A stretch of 64,000 bases of DNA from Planctomycetota bacterium (GCA_016930595.1 JAFGGJ010000002.1:50325-114324); one strand, 5' to 3'. Positions 16,905 to 38,214 are shown, counted from the stretch's first letter. Notes: generated by a model not told the origin, from the sequence alone. A program made the numbers and translations.

Positions 16905-16978
16905 TGCCCTGTCGTCTAATGGTAGGACGCCTGACTCTGGATCAGGTAGTCTACGTTCGAATCGTAGCAGGGCAGCCA
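16905..16978 (+). tRNA. tRNA-Gln (CTG), CCA encoded
   Basis: Acceptor TGCCCTG/CAGGGCA, anticodon arm CCTGA-CTCTGGA-TCAGG, T arm CTACG-TTCGAAT-CGTAG, G-CCA. Confidence 0.93.
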
Positions 16979-16991
16979 GTAATGCCCGGGT

Positions 16992-17069
16992 GTCCCCATC
17001 GTCTAGCCCGGCCCAGGACGGTAGGTTCTCAGCCTACAAACCGGGGTTCGAATCCCCGTGGGGATACCA
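16992..17069 (+). tRNA. tRNA-Glu (CTC), CCA encoded
   Basis: Acceptor GTCCCCA/TGGGGAT, anticodon arm GTAGG-TTCTCAG-CCTAC, T arm CGGGG-TTCGAAT-CCCCG, A-CCA. Confidence 0.93.
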
Positions 17070-30091: not shown

Positions 30092-30547
30092 TTAGATATG
30101 GAAAGGAAAACGATGCTCAGGCGTGGGACCCGTACGGCGGCCCTTGTGCGTGAGATCGAGCAGGGTAACGGAAGAGAGGTGCTGTCGGAGGGCCTGTTCA
30201 AGGCCGTCCCAGAGGAAGCGTGCGGAACATTCGGACGCCCTGGGGCAGGGAGGCGACGAGGACACGGAAGGAGAACAGGGGGCGAGAGCGAAGTCCTCGA
30301 CTTCGCGCACGATGTCCCAGGCGGAGACGAGGGCCGGATCCCTGGCGAGACGGCAGCCGCCGCCGGCGCCCCTGCGCAGTTCGACGAAACCTGCGGAACG
30401 GAGTCTGCGGAGAATATTGTCGACGTATTGGGGGCTGAGTCCCTGGCCGCCGGCGATATCGGCCAGGGGCGTCATGCCCATGCCGTAACGCCTTGCGAGT
30501 TCGACAAGGACGCGCACCGCGTAGCGGCTCCTGGTGGAGAGTTTCAC
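30092..30547 (-). CDS. Rrf2-family transcriptional regulator
   Basis: VKLSTRSRYAVRVLVELAR, QGLSPQYVDNILRRLRSAGFVELRRGAGGGCRLAR; GTGA overlap with upstream gene; Cys residues in C-terminal half. Confidence 0.85.
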   Translation of the reverse strand: MKLSTRSRYAVRVLVELARRYGMGMTPLADIAGGQGLSPQYVDNILRRLRSAGFVELRRGAGGGCRLARDPALVSAWDIVREVEDFALAPCSPSVSSSPPCPRASECSARFLWDGLEQALRQHLSSVTLLDLTHKGRRTGPTPEHRFPFHI

Positions 30548-30948
30548 GCCGAATGCTCCATGGCGTCGAACGAGCAGGCAAGGATGCACGCCTGGCAGAG
30601 GACGCACTGTTCGCGGTTGAAAACGATTTGAAAGTCCTGGTCGACGGCGAGTGCCCCGGAAGGACATACCCCGACGCAGGCGCCGCAATGGACGCAGCGG
30701 TCTTCGTTCTTGCGGATTTCGTGGGAGAGGGCGTCGATTTCGATGTGCTGGCCCTTGAGGTACTGGAGGCCTTTCTGGATATCGTTGCGCGTGCCGGTGA
30801 GTTCGATGAGGGCCCTGCCGTGCTCGTTGGGTTCGATGCGGGCCTGGAGGATGTTGACGACGAGATCGAATTCCTTGACCAGGCGGTAGATGATGGCGTC
30901 CCTGGCCTGTTCCGGGGGGAAGTGGAGGTGGACTGTTTTCTTGATCAC
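30544..30948 (-). CDS. NIL domain + 4Fe-4S ferredoxin protein (homocysteine biosynthesis-associated, MA1822-like)
   Basis: NIL-like N-terminus; CVHCGACVGVCPSGAL and CVLCQACILAC clusters; adjacent to DUF39 gene. Confidence 0.85.
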   Translation of the reverse strand: MIKKTVHLHFPPEQARDAIIYRLVKEFDLVVNILQARIEPNEHGRALIELTGTRNDIQKGLQYLKGQHIEIDALSHEIRKNEDRCVHCGACVGVCPSGALAVDQDFQIVFNREQCVLCQACILACSFDAMEHSA

Positions 30949-30962
30949 GGGAAACCTCCGTC

Positions 30963-32189
30963 CTAATGCGCCTTGAGTTTGAGCGGGGAGAATTCCGGGG
31001 CGTCGGGGTCGTCCGGACCCGGGATCGGCGCGACGGGTTCCGACAGGAGGAATCGGCCGGAGGAGATCCAGTCCTTGAGGATGAGAGCTATATCGCGTGC
31101 CTTCCGGTAACTCGACAGCGAAGCGGTGACGACCTTCTTGCCTTCAACGGTTATGGAGCCCGAGCGGAGCGAGGCGTAGTCAACGGAGCCGAGAGTGCGC
31201 GCCACGGCGTTGGGATAGTCCCGGGAATAATCGACGATGGGCGCGGTGATATCGGAATCGCGGACGGCGGTGAAGGCGGCAATTTCCGGGGAGAGCACAG
31301 GTATGGGCAGTCCGAAGCCGACGGCGAGACTGGTGCCGTAGCCCGTGACGCTGGCGCCGCGCAGGAATTCCGGGGACATGTGCTTGAGATCGCCGATGAG
31401 CGCAAGGGTGCCGGCGCCGCCCAGGGGAATACCCTTGGCGCTGCGCGGAGTTCTGGGGGCGTGCTGGGTGCCGTGCCAGATGACGTAACCCTGCGCTCCC
31501 CCGAGAAAGACCCTCGTGCCGATGCCCACCGTCCTGTAGTAAGGGTCGTTGAGCAGTGGGGAAAGCTGGCCGGCGGAGGAGTAATTGGCGTTGGCGATCC
31601 TGGGCAGAAGCATGCCCATGTAGGTGTAAATGGTGCGGTCGCCGACGTTAACGGCGACGTTGTAGTTCTGGTAGCTGTTCCTGGGGTTGAGGAGGAGGGC
31701 CTGGTTGAGATCGGAGAGCTTGATATAGCCGTGGGCTTCTTTGGCGGGATAACAGTCGGTGCCGTAGCCTGAGGCGCGGAATTCGACGCGCCGGCCCGCG
31801 ACGAGGTCTTCGATAACGTGGCCTCCACCGTAGCGGAATTCGCCCGGGTAGATCCTGTTGGCGGGGTCGTCTTCCTGGAGTTCGGCTGCGCCGATGTACA
31901 GGTCCACGGCGGCGAGGCCGCAGTAGGCTGGTACGCCGTTGAGGGAGGCTTTGTTCATCTTGATCTTGGGCTTGGTGTGGCCGGTGTTGAGCATGGCGCC
32001 GGACGAGCACATGATGCCAAAGGTTCCGGTGGTGACGACGTCGACGGAACGGGCGGCTTTTTCCGGGCCGTCTTCCTGTACGATGTCGATGATTTCTTCG
32101 GCGGTGACGACAACGGCTTTGCCGGAGGCGATGCGTTCGTTGATTTCCTTGAACGACTTGACCGGTCCGCAGTCTTTCTTGACCGTCAT
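30963..32189 (-). CDS. DUF39 homocysteine biosynthesis protein (MA1821/COG1900-like)
   Basis: KSFKEINERIASGKAVVVTAEEI, FGIMCSSGAMLNTGHTKPKIKM, FLGGAQGYVIWHGTQH; followed by NIL-ferredoxin. Confidence 0.85.
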   Translation of the reverse strand: MTVKKDCGPVKSFKEINERIASGKAVVVTAEEIIDIVQEDGPEKAARSVDVVTTGTFGIMCSSGAMLNTGHTKPKIKMNKASLNGVPAYCGLAAVDLYIGAAELQEDDPANRIYPGEFRYGGGHVIEDLVAGRRVEFRASGYGTDCYPAKEAHGYIKLSDLNQALLLNPRNSYQNYNVAVNVGDRTIYTYMGMLLPRIANANYSSAGQLSPLLNDPYYRTVGIGTRVFLGGAQGYVIWHGTQHAPRTPRSAKGIPLGGAGTLALIGDLKHMSPEFLRGASVTGYGTSLAVGFGLPIPVLSPEIAAFTAVRDSDITAPIVDYSRDYPNAVARTLGSVDYASLRSGSITVEGKKVVTASLSSYRKARDIALILKDWISSGRFLLSEPVAPIPGPDDPDAPEFSPLKLKAH

Positions 32190-32264
32190 GGCAGATCCTT
32201 TCGAGTTGCGGCAACGTCGCGGCATGAAGATATCCAGGGGAACGTGAGGAAGGCGATCATGGGA

Positions 32265-33200
32265 TCAGTGCTCCGGGGAGGGGAAAAGGTCCGTGGAAAG
32301 GTAGCGTTCGCCCCAGTCGCAGGCGACGGTGACGACATTGCGGCCGGGCTTGAGCGAAGAGGCGACCTTGAGAGCGGCCCAGACGTTCGCACCGGAAGAA
32401 AAGCCGCAGAACACGGCTTCTTCGCGGGCCAGCAGCCGGGCGGTGTGGACGGCGTCGGCCTGCGTAACCGGCATGACGTCGTCCACCAGGGACATGTCGA
32501 GGACGTCAGGGACGAAACCGGCGCCGATGCCCTGGAGACCGTGGGGACCGGGCTCTCCCCCGGAAAGGACCGGGCTGTCGGCCGGCTCGACGGCGATGAT
32601 TTTTGCGGAGGAGCGCTTTTCCCTGAGAAACCTGGCGACGCCGGCAAGCGTGCCGCCGGTGCCCACGCCCGCCACGAAAGCATCCACTTGCCCGTCCGTA
32701 TCGTGCCAGATTTCGCGCGCGGTGGTGCGGTAATGAATGTCGGGATTGGCTGGATTGCTGAACTGCTGGGGGAGGAAAGCAGCGGTTTCGCCGGCGATCC
32801 TGGAGGCGAGAGCAATGGCTCCGGCCATGCCTTCTTCGCCGGCGGAGAGGGCAATTTCGGCGCCGAGTGCGGAGAGTATTCTGCGGCGTTCAAGGGACAT
32901 GGTGGACGGCATGGTGAGTATGAGCTTGTAGCCGCGCACGGCGGCGACCATGGCCAGGCCGATGCCCGTGTTGCCGGAGGTGGGTTCGACAATGGTGCCG
33001 CCCGGCTTGAGCGCACCGGATTTTTCAGCGGCGTCTATCATGGCGAGGGCAATGCGGTCCTTGATGCTGGCCATGGGGTTCATGTATTCGAGCTTGACAA
33101 GGACGTCTGCAGAGGAGGGGCTATTGAGCCTGTTGAGGCGGACGATGGGGGTGGCGCCGATAAGGTCGAGCACGGAGGGATTGATTTTATGCGATGGCAT
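32265..33200 (-). CDS. cysK: Cysteine synthase A
   Basis: IGATPIVRLNRL, KLEYMNPMASIKDRIAL, EPTSGNTGIGLAMVAA, GVGTGGTLAGVARFL. Confidence 0.93.
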   Translation of the reverse strand: MPSHKINPSVLDLIGATPIVRLNRLNSPSSADVLVKLEYMNPMASIKDRIALAMIDAAEKSGALKPGGTIVEPTSGNTGIGLAMVAAVRGYKLILTMPSTMSLERRRILSALGAEIALSAGEEGMAGAIALASRIAGETAAFLPQQFSNPANPDIHYRTTAREIWHDTDGQVDAFVAGVGTGGTLAGVARFLREKRSSAKIIAVEPADSPVLSGGEPGPHGLQGIGAGFVPDVLDMSLVDDVMPVTQADAVHTARLLAREEAVFCGFSSGANVWAALKVASSLKPGRNVVTVACDWGERYLSTDLFPSPEH

Positions 33201-33330: not shown

Positions 33331-34143
33331 TCAGAGGCACTTGATGATGTTTTCGGCGCCTTTTATCCACGCGTGCTCGGGGTCGTCGAACGGCTGGAGG
33401 ACGCGGCCCGTGCCGGCGAGTATCCAGAGGTAGTAGAGTTGGTAGCCGGGGGCGGCGGCGACGGGGTGGTAGCCGCGCGGCATGATGGTGGTGTCGCAGT
33501 CCTGGAGGACGAAGACTTCGTCCATGCTGCGGTCGTCAGTGTAGATGCGCTGAAAGCCGAAGCCCTGGGAGGGCTTGAGGCGGAAGTGGTAGACTTCTTC
33601 CATGTTCACTTCGAGCGGGAGCCTGTCTTCGTCATGGCGGTGCGGGGGGAAGCTGGACCAGTTGCCGGGGGGGTTGAAAGTCTCGCCCAGGACTATCCGG
33701 CTGGCCGGGGTGCGGAGGTCGATGATATCGTGGACCTGGCGCCGCCAGTTATGAGCGCCCACGGTCTTGACTTTGACGTCGTCAGGAAGGATGAGGCGGA
33801 CGTCGCCGTCGCCGGCCGCGGCGACACGGCACACGGCAGTTTCCGCTGGCAGCCCGGTGCCTTTTATTTCGAAGGAGCTGTTCCTGGGCACGAAGACGGC
33901 GCTGGCCTTGCCGCTGAAGACGTCGGGGCGTGAGCCGATGTTCTTCATTTCTATGTCGTCGGCCTTGATATCAACGGTGCCGGAGAGTACGACAAGGGCG
34001 ACTTCATTTTCGCCGGTCTTTTCGGCGAGGCTGCCGGAGCCGTCCGTCCTGAAGACGGCGAGGGAGATGTATTCGAGGTCGCCGTCGCCCGGGGCGCATA
34101 TTTCGGTAAGGCCGTCGGGGAGGTCTTTGCGGACAAGGTACAT
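33331..34143 (-). CDS. iolB: 5-deoxy-glucuronate isomerase
   Basis: FNPPGNWSSFPPHRHDEDRLPLEVNMEEVYHFRLKPSQGFGFQRIYTDD, DCDTTIMPRGYHPVAAAPGYQLYYLWILAG. Confidence 0.9.
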   Translation of the reverse strand: MYLVRKDLPDGLTEICAPGDGDLEYISLAVFRTDGSGSLAEKTGENEVALVVLSGTVDIKADDIEMKNIGSRPDVFSGKASAVFVPRNSSFEIKGTGLPAETAVCRVAAAGDGDVRLILPDDVKVKTVGAHNWRRQVHDIIDLRTPASRIVLGETFNPPGNWSSFPPHRHDEDRLPLEVNMEEVYHFRLKPSQGFGFQRIYTDDRSMDEVFVLQDCDTTIMPRGYHPVAAAPGYQLYYLWILAGTGRVLQPFDDPEHAWIKGAENIIKCL

Positions 34144-34179
34144 GGGGCGGCTCCTTTCGTTCAGCGGCCGGGAAGGTGC

Positions 34180-34268: not shown

Positions 34269-34341
34269 ATAGATGATAGCGCCGGGCAACGCAATAAACA
34301 GCCACGGTCAGGCGGCGTCCCGCTGTTCGAGAGGTGCAACC

Positions 34342-34797
34342 ATGAAATTGAGCGATCATCTGTCTGAGAGTCTTGTCATCGCGGAGATGCAGAGCAGCAC
34401 AAAGGACGAGGCGATCCGGGAACTTGCACGGCTGCTGGACGGGAACGACAGGGTGCTGGATTTCGATCGGTACGTGAAGGACGTTTTCGACCGGGAGAAG
34501 GAGGGTTCGACGGGAATCGGGCGGGGAGCGGCCATACCGCACGCACGCACGGACGCACTGAGGAATTTCGTGGTGGCCGTGGGGAGGTCGAAGAAGGGCG
34601 TAGACTTCGACGCAATAGACGGAAAGCCTGTGAAGGTGGTTATCCTGATGGGTACGCCCAAGGAAAAGGTGCGTTCGTACCTGGTGTTTCTTGCACACGT
34701 GAGCCACCTGATCAAAAAGCAGGGATTTCTGGAATCCATCCTGGCCGCTGCGGATGCGAAGACGATCGTGGAGCTCTTCCGGGAGCAGGAAAACTGA
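34342..34797 (+). CDS. PTS EIIA domain protein (fructose/Ntr type), standalone
   Basis: GRGAAIPHARTDALRNFVVAVGRSKKGVDFDAIDGKPVKVVILMGTP; active-site His in IPHA. Confidence 0.88.
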   Translation: MKLSDHLSESLVIAEMQSSTKDEAIRELARLLDGNDRVLDFDRYVKDVFDREKEGSTGIGRGAAIPHARTDALRNFVVAVGRSKKGVDFDAIDGKPVKVVILMGTPKEKVRSYLVFLAHVSHLIKKQGFLESILAAADAKTIVELFREQEN

Positions 34798-34830
34798 CCG
34801 GGGGCAGCCCCGGACACCATTGAGGCGGAC

Positions 34831-36096
34831 ATGTGGCACGAGATTCTGAATTTCTTTCATGAAACGCAGAACTGGCTTCTCGTAGGCCTGGTTCTGCTCG
34901 TCGGGTACGGAGCGGGCAAACTCGCCAAGCTGGCCAGGCTGCCTTCGGTGATAGGGTACCTGGTGACCGGGGTGGTGCTGGGCGGATCGCTGATGGACGT
35001 CATAGACCTGCACACGAGCGAGCAGCTCGGGCTGATAACGGATTTCGGGCTTGCGATTGTGGCGTTCATGATAGGCACGGAACTTTCCCGCAAGATACTG
35101 CAGCGGATAGGGAAGGAACTGGTATCGACCCTGCTGTTCGAGGCGTTCGGGGCGGTGATATTGACGTTCGCGGCATGCGTGCTGCTGGCCGGAATGATAC
35201 TGCCGGATGGGATGAAGGTAATGCCCGTGGCGCTGATATTCGGGGCGCTTGCCGCCGCCACAGCGCCAGCGGGAACGGTGGCAGTGATACAGGAGTACCG
35301 GGCGCGCGGGCCCATAACGAAAATGCTGCTGGCGATAGTGGGGCTGGATGACGGTCTTGCGATCATGACTTATGCGTTCACCGTTGCGGCGGCCAAGATG
35401 CTGCTGGGCGGCAAGCTGTCGTTCGGAGGCGTGGTTACGGGGCCCATAGTGGAGATAGTGGGGGCATTGGTCCTGGGGACGGTGGGGGGGATGTTCCTGA
35501 CAGCGATAATAAGTCGGGTGAAGTCGAGAGGAGAATTGCTGGTCATTACGCTGGGGACGGTATTCCTTGTGACGGGCCTTGCGAACATAATGCACCTGTC
35601 GCTGATACTGGCGAACCTGGCGGTGGGGACGACGTTGACGAACATATCATCGAGGGAGACGGAACGTTCGTACGGGGTGGTGGAGCAGATATCGCTGCCC
35701 GTGTATATATTGTTCTTCGTGGTTGCGGGAGCTCACCTGGACCTGCGGGTGCTGGCGGCGACGGGGCTGATGGTTCCGGTCTACATAGTGGGCAGAAGCG
35801 CCGGGAAGATATCCGGGGCCTACGCCGGAACGACCATCGGGGGGTCGAACGCCACGATGCGCAAAAACCTGGGTCTTGGGCTGCTGTCGCAGGCGGGGGT
35901 GGCGGTCGGGCTGTCGCTGATGGTGTCGCGGGACCTGGCTGAATTCGGAGAGGCCGGGCGCGCTATAGGGCTGGTCGTGATAAACACGATTGCGGCGACG
36001 ACGATATTTTTCGAAATAGTGGGACCGATATTCACGAAGATAGCGCTTGACAAGGGCGGGGAGATAAACGCCGCGAACCCGACGGGAGAGACATGA
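34831..36096 (+). CDS. CPA-type cation:proton antiporter, copy 1
   Basis: About 12 TM; LPSVIGYLVTGVVLG, APAGTVAVIQEYRARG, IVGLDDGLAI motifs. Confidence 0.88.
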   Translation: MWHEILNFFHETQNWLLVGLVLLVGYGAGKLAKLARLPSVIGYLVTGVVLGGSLMDVIDLHTSEQLGLITDFGLAIVAFMIGTELSRKILQRIGKELVSTLLFEAFGAVILTFAACVLLAGMILPDGMKVMPVALIFGALAAATAPAGTVAVIQEYRARGPITKMLLAIVGLDDGLAIMTYAFTVAAAKMLLGGKLSFGGVVTGPIVEIVGALVLGTVGGMFLTAIISRVKSRGELLVITLGTVFLVTGLANIMHLSLILANLAVGTTLTNISSRETERSYGVVEQISLPVYILFFVVAGAHLDLRVLAATGLMVPVYIVGRSAGKISGAYAGTTIGGSNATMRKNLGLGLLSQAGVAVGLSLMVSRDLAEFGEAGRAIGLVVINTIAATTIFFEIVGPIFTKIALDKGGEINAANPTGET

Positions 36097-36434
36097 TGAA
36101 ACTCCTTGTTGTTGTCCTGAACGAACGTGAAAACCTGGACGACCTTATGGAAGCGCTGCTGGCGCTGGAGGTCAACGGGCTGACGTCGGTGGAGTCGGAG
36201 GAAGTGGTGTCGCTGCTGGCCCAGGAAGTGCCGATATTCGCAGGCCTGCGGCACATGCTGACCGGTCCCCGCGAGCACAATATGACGGTGTTCGGCCTGT
36301 CGGACAAGGACGACGTCCTTGTGCGGCTGGCGGAGTCGCTGAAAGAGGTGGGGGTGGACATGAACGCGTCCGGGTTCGGTTACGCCTTCTGCGTGCCGGT
36401 GGAAGGTGCAGCAGGAGGCGCCCTGGAGGACTAG
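36093..36434 (+). CDS. Small PII-like (ferredoxin-fold) regulatory protein, copy 1
   Basis: KLLVVVLNERENLDDLMEALLALEVNGLTSVES pattern like PII beta-alpha-beta; 4-nt overlap with antiporter gene. Confidence 0.6.
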   Translation: MMKLLVVVLNERENLDDLMEALLALEVNGLTSVESEEVVSLLAQEVPIFAGLRHMLTGPREHNMTVFGLSDKDDVLVRLAESLKEVGVDMNASGFGYAFCVPVEGAAGGALED

Positions 36435-36483
36435 GGGCGTTCCGCAAGCGCCTCGCCGGAACGATGGCGCAACGTAAGTGCTG

Positions 36484-36511
36484 TTGAATAAACGGGTTTC
36501 CCACGTAGAAT
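36484..36511 (+). promoter_or_regulatory. Sigma70-like promoter for the second antiporter cassette
   Basis: TTGAAT, 16-bp spacer, TAGAAT. Confidence 0.55.
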
Positions 36512-36589
36512 AGCAGGTGCGTCGGACGTGAACGTCCGGCCGGGACTCCGGGCGAGCGGCCCGGACAGGGAGAAGCCACCGGCACCGCC

Positions 36590-37879
36590 ATGTGGGAAAC
36601 TTTCCTGACGGTTCTGCACGAAACGCACAACTGGCTGCTCATAGGGGCGGCCATTCTGCTGGGGTTTCTGAGCGGCAAGGCCGCCAGACTGGTCAGGCTT
36701 CCTTCGATAATAGGCTACCTGCTTGCCGGCGTGGCGCTGGGCGTGTCGGTAACGGATATCATCGACCTGCACACGGGTGAGGAACTGGGGCTCATTACGG
36801 ACCTCGGCCTGTCGATAGTGGCGTTCATGATAGGCACGGAGCTGTCGCGCAGGATACTGAAGCGCATGGGCCGGGAACTGACGATGATACTGTTCTCGCA
36901 GTTCCTGGGGGCGGTGGCCGCGGTGACGGTGGCTGTGTGGCTGCTGGCGGAATGGATACTGCCGGCGGACATACCGGCGGGTGCGGCAGCTCTGGTTTTT
37001 GGAGCGATTGCGGCCGCTACGGCTCCGGCGGGCACGGTGGCGGTGATACAGGAATACCGTTCCAAGGGGGACGTCACGAGGATGTTGCTGGCGGTGGTGG
37101 GACTCGATGACGGGCTTGCGATAGTAGCGTATGCGTTTGCGGTGGCGATAGCCCGGATGTTTCTGGGAGGAGGCTTTTCGGCCGGGGCGGTGCTTGCCGG
37201 GCCGGGGCTGGAGGTGTTCGGGGCGCTGATCGTCGGGTCGATAGGAGGCGCGGTGCTCGCAGCGGCGTCCAGCAGGCTGAAGGGCCGGGGGGAAGTGCTG
37301 ACGGTGACGCTCGGGACGATATTCCTGGTGACGGGGCTTGCGAACGTGTTTCATTTTTCGCTGATACTGGCCAACCTCGCCGTGGGCACGGCGGTGGCGA
37401 ATATATCGTCCAGGGAGACGGAACGCACGTATGCGGCGGTGGAACAGGTGTCGCTCCCGGTGTACATACTGTTTTTCGTGGTGGCCGGGGCGCACCTTGA
37501 CCTGAGGGTGCTTATGACGATGGGGCTGCTGGTGCCGGTATACATTATCGCCAGGAGCCTGGGCAAGGTTACGGGGAGCTGGCTGGGGGCGACTATCGCA
37601 AATGCCGGTACCGTGATGCGGAAGTACCTGGGGTTCGGGTTGTTGTCGCAGGCGGGAGTGGCCGTGGGGTTGTCGCTTCTGGTGTCGCGGGAACTCGCAG
37701 GGTACGAGGAGGAAGGCGGCCGGATGCTGGGGATAATAGCGATAAACGCGGTGGCGGCTTCGACGATATTTTTTGAAATAGTGGGGCCCATAGCGACAAA
37801 GATGGCGCTGGTGAAGGCCGGCGAAGTGGACATGGGAGGGAAGGAAGAGGAGGACGGGAAGGAAGAGGAGGATAGATGA
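36590..37879 (+). CDS. CPA-type cation:proton antiporter, copy 2
   Basis: Full-length paralogue of 34831-36096 with the same motifs (APAGTVAVIQEYRSKG, VVGLDDGLAI). Confidence 0.88.
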   Translation: MWETFLTVLHETHNWLLIGAAILLGFLSGKAARLVRLPSIIGYLLAGVALGVSVTDIIDLHTGEELGLITDLGLSIVAFMIGTELSRRILKRMGRELTMILFSQFLGAVAAVTVAVWLLAEWILPADIPAGAAALVFGAIAAATAPAGTVAVIQEYRSKGDVTRMLLAVVGLDDGLAIVAYAFAVAIARMFLGGGFSAGAVLAGPGLEVFGALIVGSIGGAVLAAASSRLKGRGEVLTVTLGTIFLVTGLANVFHFSLILANLAVGTAVANISSRETERTYAAVEQVSLPVYILFFVVAGAHLDLRVLMTMGLLVPVYIIARSLGKVTGSWLGATIANAGTVMRKYLGFGLLSQAGVAVGLSLLVSRELAGYEEEGGRMLGIIAINAVAASTIFFEIVGPIATKMALVKAGEVDMGGKEEEDGKEEEDR

Positions 37880-38214
37880 GACTGCTGGTGGTGGTTCTGA
37901 ATGAACGCGAGCATCTTGACGACGTGCTGGAAGCGTTGCTGACGCTGGACGTCCAGGGCGTTACTTCGGTTGAAAGCGAGGAGGTGATAAGCCTGCTCGC
38001 TCAGGAAGTGCCCATTTTCGCGGGGCTCAGGCACATGCTGACGGGCCCCAGGGAGCACAACATGACGATATTCAGCGTGTCGCAGAACGACGACGTGCTG
38101 GAGAAGTTCCGGGCGATGTTGAACGAGGTCGGGGTGGACATGAATAAAGAGGGATTCGGTTACGCGTTCACCGTGCCGGTTGAAGGCATGGCGGGGACGT
38201 TCCCCGAGGATTGA
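37876..38214 (+). CDS. Small PII-like regulatory protein, copy 2
   Basis: Paralogue of 36093-36434; 4-nt overlap with antiporter copy 2. Confidence 0.6.
   Translation: MRLLVVVLNEREHLDDVLEALLTLDVQGVTSVESEEVISLLAQEVPIFAGLRHMLTGPREHNMTIFSVSQNDDVLEKFRAMLNEVGVDMNKEGFGYAFTVPVEGMAGTFPED

Follow-up and report, generated by a model that had tools for sequence, protein, structure and literature searches.

The PII-fold protein GlnK is encoded with the ammonium channel AmtB and docks on it. Docking of GlnK on AmtB has been noted alongside that of the PII-like protein SbtB, whose T-loop docks in a cytoplasmic cleft of the transporter SbtA (PMC8352866). A different type of control is found in Escherichia coli, in which the unphosphorylated form of PtsN (EIIA-Ntr) holds the K+/H+ antiporter YcgO (CvrA), a member of cation/proton antiporter (CPA) family CPA1, shut (PMC11808508). 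Here we describe a locus from a Planctomycetota bacterium (GCA_016930595.1 JAFGGJ010000002.1:50325-114324; the whole stretch of 64,000 nucleotides that was analysed is referred to as the window), in which a standalone EIIA gene of the phosphotransferase system (PTS) is followed by two antiporter/PII-like gene pairs. We hypothesize, with confidence that is about evenly balanced, that the locus encodes an energy-status-gated Na+/H+ antiport module, in which the PII-like protein would act as an adaptor on the antiporter and EIIA phosphorylation would be its input. The five open reading frames (ORFs) of the locus are all on the + strand, with positions counted from the first letter of the window:

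34342..34797, + strand, standalone PTS EIIA (PTS_EIIA_2, fructose/Ntr type), 151 amino acids, PF00359, phospho-acceptor His67
34831..36096, + strand, cation/proton antiporter 1 (CPA2, NapA-like), 421 amino acids, PF00999, D173-D174, K326 and ATAP
36093..36434, + strand, PII-like protein 1, 113 amino acids, supported by identity to copy 2, ortholog profile and fold
36435..36589, + strand, inter-cassette gap, 155 nt, sigma-70-like site TTGAAT-16-TAGAAT at 36484-36511
36590..37879, + strand, cation/proton antiporter 2 (CPA2, NapA-like), 429 amino acids, PF00999, D-D...K and ATAP
37876..38214, + strand, PII-like protein 2, 112 amino acids, supported by an AlphaFold2 (AF2) fold and Foldseek matches

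There are 33 nt between the end of EIIA and antiporter 1, and both PII-like genes begin within the stop of the preceding antiporter gene, with a 4-nt ATGA overlap. The tandem pairs together span 34831-38214, and no EIIB or EIIC adjoins the locus. A first-pass annotation of the sequence had described this arrangement, from the lone EIIA and its spacing to the overlap and the repeated pair, and the ORFs and domain matches agree with it. The two antiporter copies are 64% identical to each other and the two PII-like copies 75–77%, and within each family the window copies are mutual nearest relatives among the sequences compared; judged by these comparisons, the two pairs are products of a genuine tandem duplication. 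The EIIA start at 34342 is preceded by a GAGAGGTG ribosome-binding site, and was favoured over an upstream ATG at 34273 because the PF00359 match starts at residue 6 of the reading from 34342.

What the locus would share with PtsN-YcgO is control of a cation/proton antiporter by the phosphorylation state of a standalone EIIA, with EI and HPr-like donors (PMC11808508). In E. coli, however, EIIA acts without a PII-like protein, through binding to a CorC domain of the YcgO tail, whereas in the window the genes are linked, the antiporters are CPA2/NapA-like, tail-less and predicted to be Na+-selective, and a PII-like protein would be interposed. In common with SbtA-SbtB (PMC8352866), a PII-like protein is encoded beside a transporter with a 10-transmembrane crossover fold. 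In contrast, the transporter SbtA is a trimer that carries out Na+/HCO3- symport, its partner SbtB is a sensor of cAMP/AMP, and there is no EIIA. The window proteins fall outside SbtB, as their neighbour is a PF00999 protein and not SbtA, and the redox C-terminal loop of SbtB was not seen in them. GlnK-AmtB differs in that its transporter is an ammonium channel and its regulator a canonical PII protein, whose 2-oxoglutarate site, ATP site and uridylylation are absent from the window proteins.

The small proteins are members of the PII superfamily, as secured by the profile and Pfam matches of their relatives together with a predicted fold. The window copies themselves are sub-threshold: PII-like 2 matched PF00543 with E=0.045 (14.5 bits, below the gathering cut-off of 25) and the PF00543 search of PII-like 1 gave no match. 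Of 26 relatives, however, 17 matched PF00543 individually (best E=2e-11), and the relative L019 passed the gathering cut-off with 29.1 bits. A search of the PDB with a profile of the 26 relatives matched PII chains, among them Neisseria PII (2gw8, E=1.3e-6); the relatives were needed, as a phmmer search of the PDB with a single window PII-like sequence returned noise only. The AF2 model of PII-like 2, made from a four-sequence input, had a predicted local distance difference test score (pLDDT) of 79.7 and a ferredoxin-like beta-alpha-beta-beta-alpha-beta fold, and the top listed Foldseek matches of this predicted fold were all PII or PII-like (best E 3.4e-5). Their TM-scores were moderate (0.5–0.6), such that the good support for the fold class does not extend to the geometry of the T-loop. 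The highest query TM-score among the listed hits (0.59) was that of the PII-like protein PotN from Lentilactobacillus (PDB 7o4x), which lies outside the sequence-profile matches at E<=1, and whose fold match does not establish same-subfamily status. The PII label of the first-pass annotation is upheld by the relatives, the 2gw8 match and the model, and a non-PII fold is not what either profile or prediction returned.

A search for relatives of the PII-like proteins found them in 20/296 genomes from the window's phylum, 5/40 of Candidatus Sumerlaeota, 33/100 of the phylum of locus L012 and 43/199 of a phylum that contains the Clostridia. L013 (Clostridia), a false match within an unrelated reading frame, served solely to reach the last of these phyla; L017, L018, L022 and L023 were rejected as chance frames. 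The loci fetched were the better-scoring PII-like matches and not a random sample, L049 was counted as fused on Pfam evidence, and the weak profile matches L058 and L059 were excluded from the own-phylum counts. In the window's phylum, EIIA was adjacent or fused in 12 of 17 loci and an antiporter was adjacent in 13 of 17. The corresponding numbers were 19/21 and 12/21 in the phylum of L012, 5/6 and 0/6 in Sumerlaeota, and 0/21 and 19/21 in the Clostridia-containing phylum, where the two exceptions that had no antiporter lie near contig ends. The exact EIIA-antiporter-PII order, whose conservation the first-pass annotation had proposed to check, is not unique to this genome: it recurs in L055 and L097, with related arrangements in several phyla, and L154 of the Clostridia-containing phylum has an independent tandem PII-antiporter-PII-antiporter array. 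The fetched loci total 613 kb, and the zone within 1.5 kb of the PII-like gene makes up only 35% of that sequence, yet it holds 53 of the 55 antiporter ORFs and 32 of the 34 EIIA ORFs. A chance neighbourhood was rejected based on these linkage counts and this clustering. At a further locus, L045, the ORF next to the PII-like gene matches DUF748/AsmA.

In four loci EIIA and the PII-like protein are a single chain:

L049:5964-6797, no strand sign, single-chain EIIA::PII-like, family f15, window's phylum
L051:1055-1924, - strand, single-chain EIIA::PII-like, family f15, window's phylum
L053:6430-7254, - strand, single-chain EIIA::PII-like, family f15, window's phylum
L057:5609-6418, no strand sign, single-chain EIIA::PII-like, family f15, window's phylum

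In all of these EIIA is N-terminal and PII-like C-terminal, the phospho-His is kept, and one or two antiporter genes come after the fusion. The PF00359 match was above the cut-off in L051 (5.5e-7) and weaker in L049 and L057, and the P-II matches in L049, L051 and L057 had E values of 0.024–0.036. The existence of these single chains supports a functional coupling of EIIA and PII-like, and at the level of sequence they are the strongest evidence that the two act together. The distances among PII-like proteins were also correlated with those among their antiporters (r=0.63 for 43 adjacent pairs, with 0/2000 permutations as high), including inside the Clostridia-containing phylum (r=0.68, again 0/2000). 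Because shared species history contributes to this correlation, it supports co-inheritance of the two proteins and is not proof of contact.

Both antiporters belong to the CPA superfamily, with PF00999 spanning the full membrane part of each (antiporter 1, E=1.2e-27, residues 22–405; antiporter 2, E=3.4e-32, residues 26–406). The best match of the antiporter family profile in the PDB was TtNapA (5bz2, E=3.6e-16), and TtNapA (PDB 5bz2, 4bwz) is the best solved relative, a distant one with which the Asp-Asp of transmembrane helix 5 (TM5) and the TM10 Lys align. We know of no PII or EIIA partner of TtNapA. Antiporter 1 has A-T-A-P in TM4, I169 at motif position 5, D173-D174 in TM5 and K326 in TM10, antiporter 2 keeps every one of these motif residues (ATAP, D-D...K), and D-D...K is unchanged across 16 antiporter relatives. 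In electrogenic CPA2 proteins, motif positions 6 and 7 are both Asp, position 8 is Lys and position 5 is not Glu, and Na+-selective ones have a non-polar residue at position 4 (PMC6181914). Both window antiporters carry the electrogenic signature and the Na+-type position 4, and by this rule, which has exceptions (e.g., NHA2), they are predicted to be electrogenic Na+/H+ exchangers. K+ antiport by analogy to YcgO is disfavoured by the TM4/TM5/TM10 motif; thus, of the enterobacterial K+ analogy drawn in the first-pass annotation, the regulator stands and the ion does not, as the rules of PMC6181914 predict Na+/H+ over K+/H+. Both proteins stop shortly past the membrane domain (421–429 amino acids), with no C-terminal regulatory domain, and so are without the tail domain used by PtsN on YcgO (PMC11808508). 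In L020, L044, L047, L048, L050, L054, L056 and L057, two adjacent or overlapping antiporter-like frames were observed near the PII-like gene, one of them without the TM5 D-D. Such pairs are candidate heteromers with a degenerate subunit.

The EIIA protein matched PF00359 with E=6e-33 (114.3 bits against a curated cut-off of 27). Its phospho-acceptor His67 is within IPHART and is kept in module homologues, so that the active His named earlier can be placed at residue 67 in TGIGRGAAIPHART. The protein scored slightly under the cut-off of TIGR00848 (99.2 versus 103.5 bits) and under that of the PtsN equivalog model TIGR01419 (70.6 versus 138.7 bits); it is not classed as a PtsN/EIIA-Ntr equivalog, though it may work in a PtsN-like manner. 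The genome, which is 82% complete, has one EI, one HPr and seven EIIA_2 matches, and no PF02302-type EIIB was found in it (EIIC and other EIIB families were not searched for). With one EI, one HPr and no PF02302 EIIB, EIIA has donors but no obvious sugar permease, and the PTS of this genome looks like a regulatory one with seven EIIA_2 outputs. HPr, an EIIA and EI share one contig (G000 contig C14:5543-16761).

In the mechanism that we propose, the antiporters would exchange Na+ for protons electrogenically and the PII-like protein, probably a trimer, would be their dedicated soluble regulator, its T-loop (conserved PIFAG motif) docking on the antiporter from the cytoplasmic side in the style of SbtB on SbtA (PMC8352866). 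EIIA would be phosphorylated on His67 from phosphoenolpyruvate (PEP) via the single EI and HPr and would control the PII-like protein, here and in many relatives, PEP supply being the input where EIIA is present. When PEP or phosphorelay flux is low, unphosphorylated EIIA and the PII-like protein would keep the antiporter shut, and proton motive force would not be spent on Na+ export. Through tandem duplication, one EIIA would preside over two antiporter/PII-like pairs. The sign of regulation, with unphosphorylated EIIA as inhibitor, is assigned by analogy with PtsN-YcgO, and the docking mode by analogy with SbtA-SbtB (PMC8352866). From sequence we infer joint gating of the antiporters by EIIA and PII-like, and we likewise infer the physical interactions, the ion and the order. 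EIIA to PII-like to antiporter is the simplest chain because the Clostridia-containing phylum pairs PII-like with antiporter in the absence of EIIA, while Sumerlaeota and the fusions pair it with EIIA; as it is common to all groups, the PII-like protein is the likely link. Conservation of the T-loop (2.0 bits, compared to 1.9–2.2 for the core strands and 1.2 for helix 2) was dropped as proof of docking, since it is about core-strand level and is supportive but not decisive. A broader version, to which we give somewhat less than even weight, is that in several phyla a PII-fold adaptor combines input from the PTS phosphorelay (EIIA~P, in some lineages fused to it) with that from its own ligand to switch Na+/H+ antiporters, which in some lineages would pair one active with one degenerate subunit.

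EIIA could instead bind the antiporter directly, with the PII-like protein regulating the same antiporter separately by nucleotide and no contact between the two regulators. Unphosphorylated PtsN in E. coli does bind and inhibit a CPA1 antiporter directly (PMC11808508), and the PII-antiporter pairs of the Clostridia-containing phylum do without EIIA. Against this, the window antiporters have no counterpart of the C-terminal CorC/RCK region on which PtsN depends in YcgO, and EIIA and PII-like are found together with no nearby antiporter in Sumerlaeota and are fused in single chains, which leaves two independent inputs a possible but doubtful arrangement. It is also conceivable that antiporter and PII-like form the functional unit and EIIA is just co-transcribed, having another target or serving as a general phospho-sink, given that only one of the seven EIIA_2 proteins of the genome is at this locus and that none of the 21 Clostridia-containing-phylum cases has one. 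We consider this unlikely, as the linkage recurs in three phyla and extends to EIIA::PII-like fusions.

Slightly less probable again is that the two window antiporters are a heterodimer with one regulatory member and not parallel systems. Two antiporter genes, one without D-D, come after PII-like in relatives such as L020, L047, L050, L054, L056 and L057; both window copies, however, keep all motif residues, and each is paired with a PII-like protein of its own. Superfamily membership could further be taken to mean that the PII-like proteins sense nitrogen/2-oxoglutarate as GlnB/GlnK do, and the first-pass annotation had called the system nitrogen-gated. We rejected nitrogen sensing, and regard such a system as very improbable. 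This is because the canonical motifs GRQKG (2-oxoglutarate Gln), EIYRGAEY (uridylylated Tyr) and GDGKIF (ATP-phosphate Lys) are replaced, based on alignments and column counts, by sequences without the sensing residues (e.g., PIFAGLR and PGTGIIF). Having neither that Gln, that Tyr nor a GDGK ATP loop, the proteins are not canonical GlnB/GlnK members, and no ammonium transporter or nitrogen gene adjoins the locus.

Several points weigh against the gated antiport module itself. A trimeric PII protein would not match the symmetry of a dimeric CPA antiporter, and the Mantel test leaves species history in the PII-like/antiporter correlation. In Sumerlaeota, EIIA and PII-like are paired with no antiporter nearby and the PII-like protein may therefore have other targets, and the PII-like genes of family f38 (L019, L045 and L046) have neither EIIA nor antiporter nearby. 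In the window PII-like proteins, ESxGM has become ESEEV, with loss of the conserved T-loop glycine, and the PG of the B-loop is also gone, so that any ligand of theirs may differ or be absent. That glycine, at the base of the T-loop, is kept in most of the family and lost in the window's clade (L101, L114, the clade of the phylum of L012 and the window proteins), which is mostly EIIA-linked. Its loss goes with EIIA linkage (Fisher p=0.001), an association that largely traces to this one clade, and, as a lead only, the EIIA phosphorelay might have replaced the ligand as input there.

The TTGAAT-16-TAGAAT site in the 155-nt gap is a possible internal promoter; sigma-70-like sites in the region numbered 2, compared to 1.2 +/- 1.1 in shuffles, which is not above chance, and promoter and terminator scans of the region gave little beyond chance level. 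An ABC1/UbiB-type kinase gene starts 99 nt downstream of the operon. Directly upstream is a divergent KduI/IolB family gene (33334-34147, -), followed by a homocysteine-biosynthesis-type cluster (30547-33200, -) of HcyBio (DUF39), NIL-ferredoxin and a cysteine-synthase-like pyridoxal phosphate enzyme (PALP), and beyond it an Asn_synthase/NAD_synthase-type ATPase (LarE-like). Two adjoining tRNA genes were also found in the window (16905-17066, +).

No description of an EIIA/PII-like/cation antiporter module was found in the open-access literature, with subscription journals not covered. As far as we have seen, PtsN-YcgO and SbtA-SbtB are precedents for the two halves, but there is none for their combination, for the fusions or for the adaptor role. 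Overall, the gene content and linkage described here suggest that cells set sodium export by energy state through the EIIA/PII-like/antiporter module. If so, PEP/pyruvate status would be linked directly to sodium and pH homeostasis in bacteria other than Proteobacteria, and the coupling would be made by a PII-fold protein. It would also provide a role for standalone EIIA in genomes seemingly without sugar PTS permeases, and a PII-like branch carried by about one-fifth of the genomes sampled from the Clostridia-containing phylum, and by one-third of those from another, would gain its first function.

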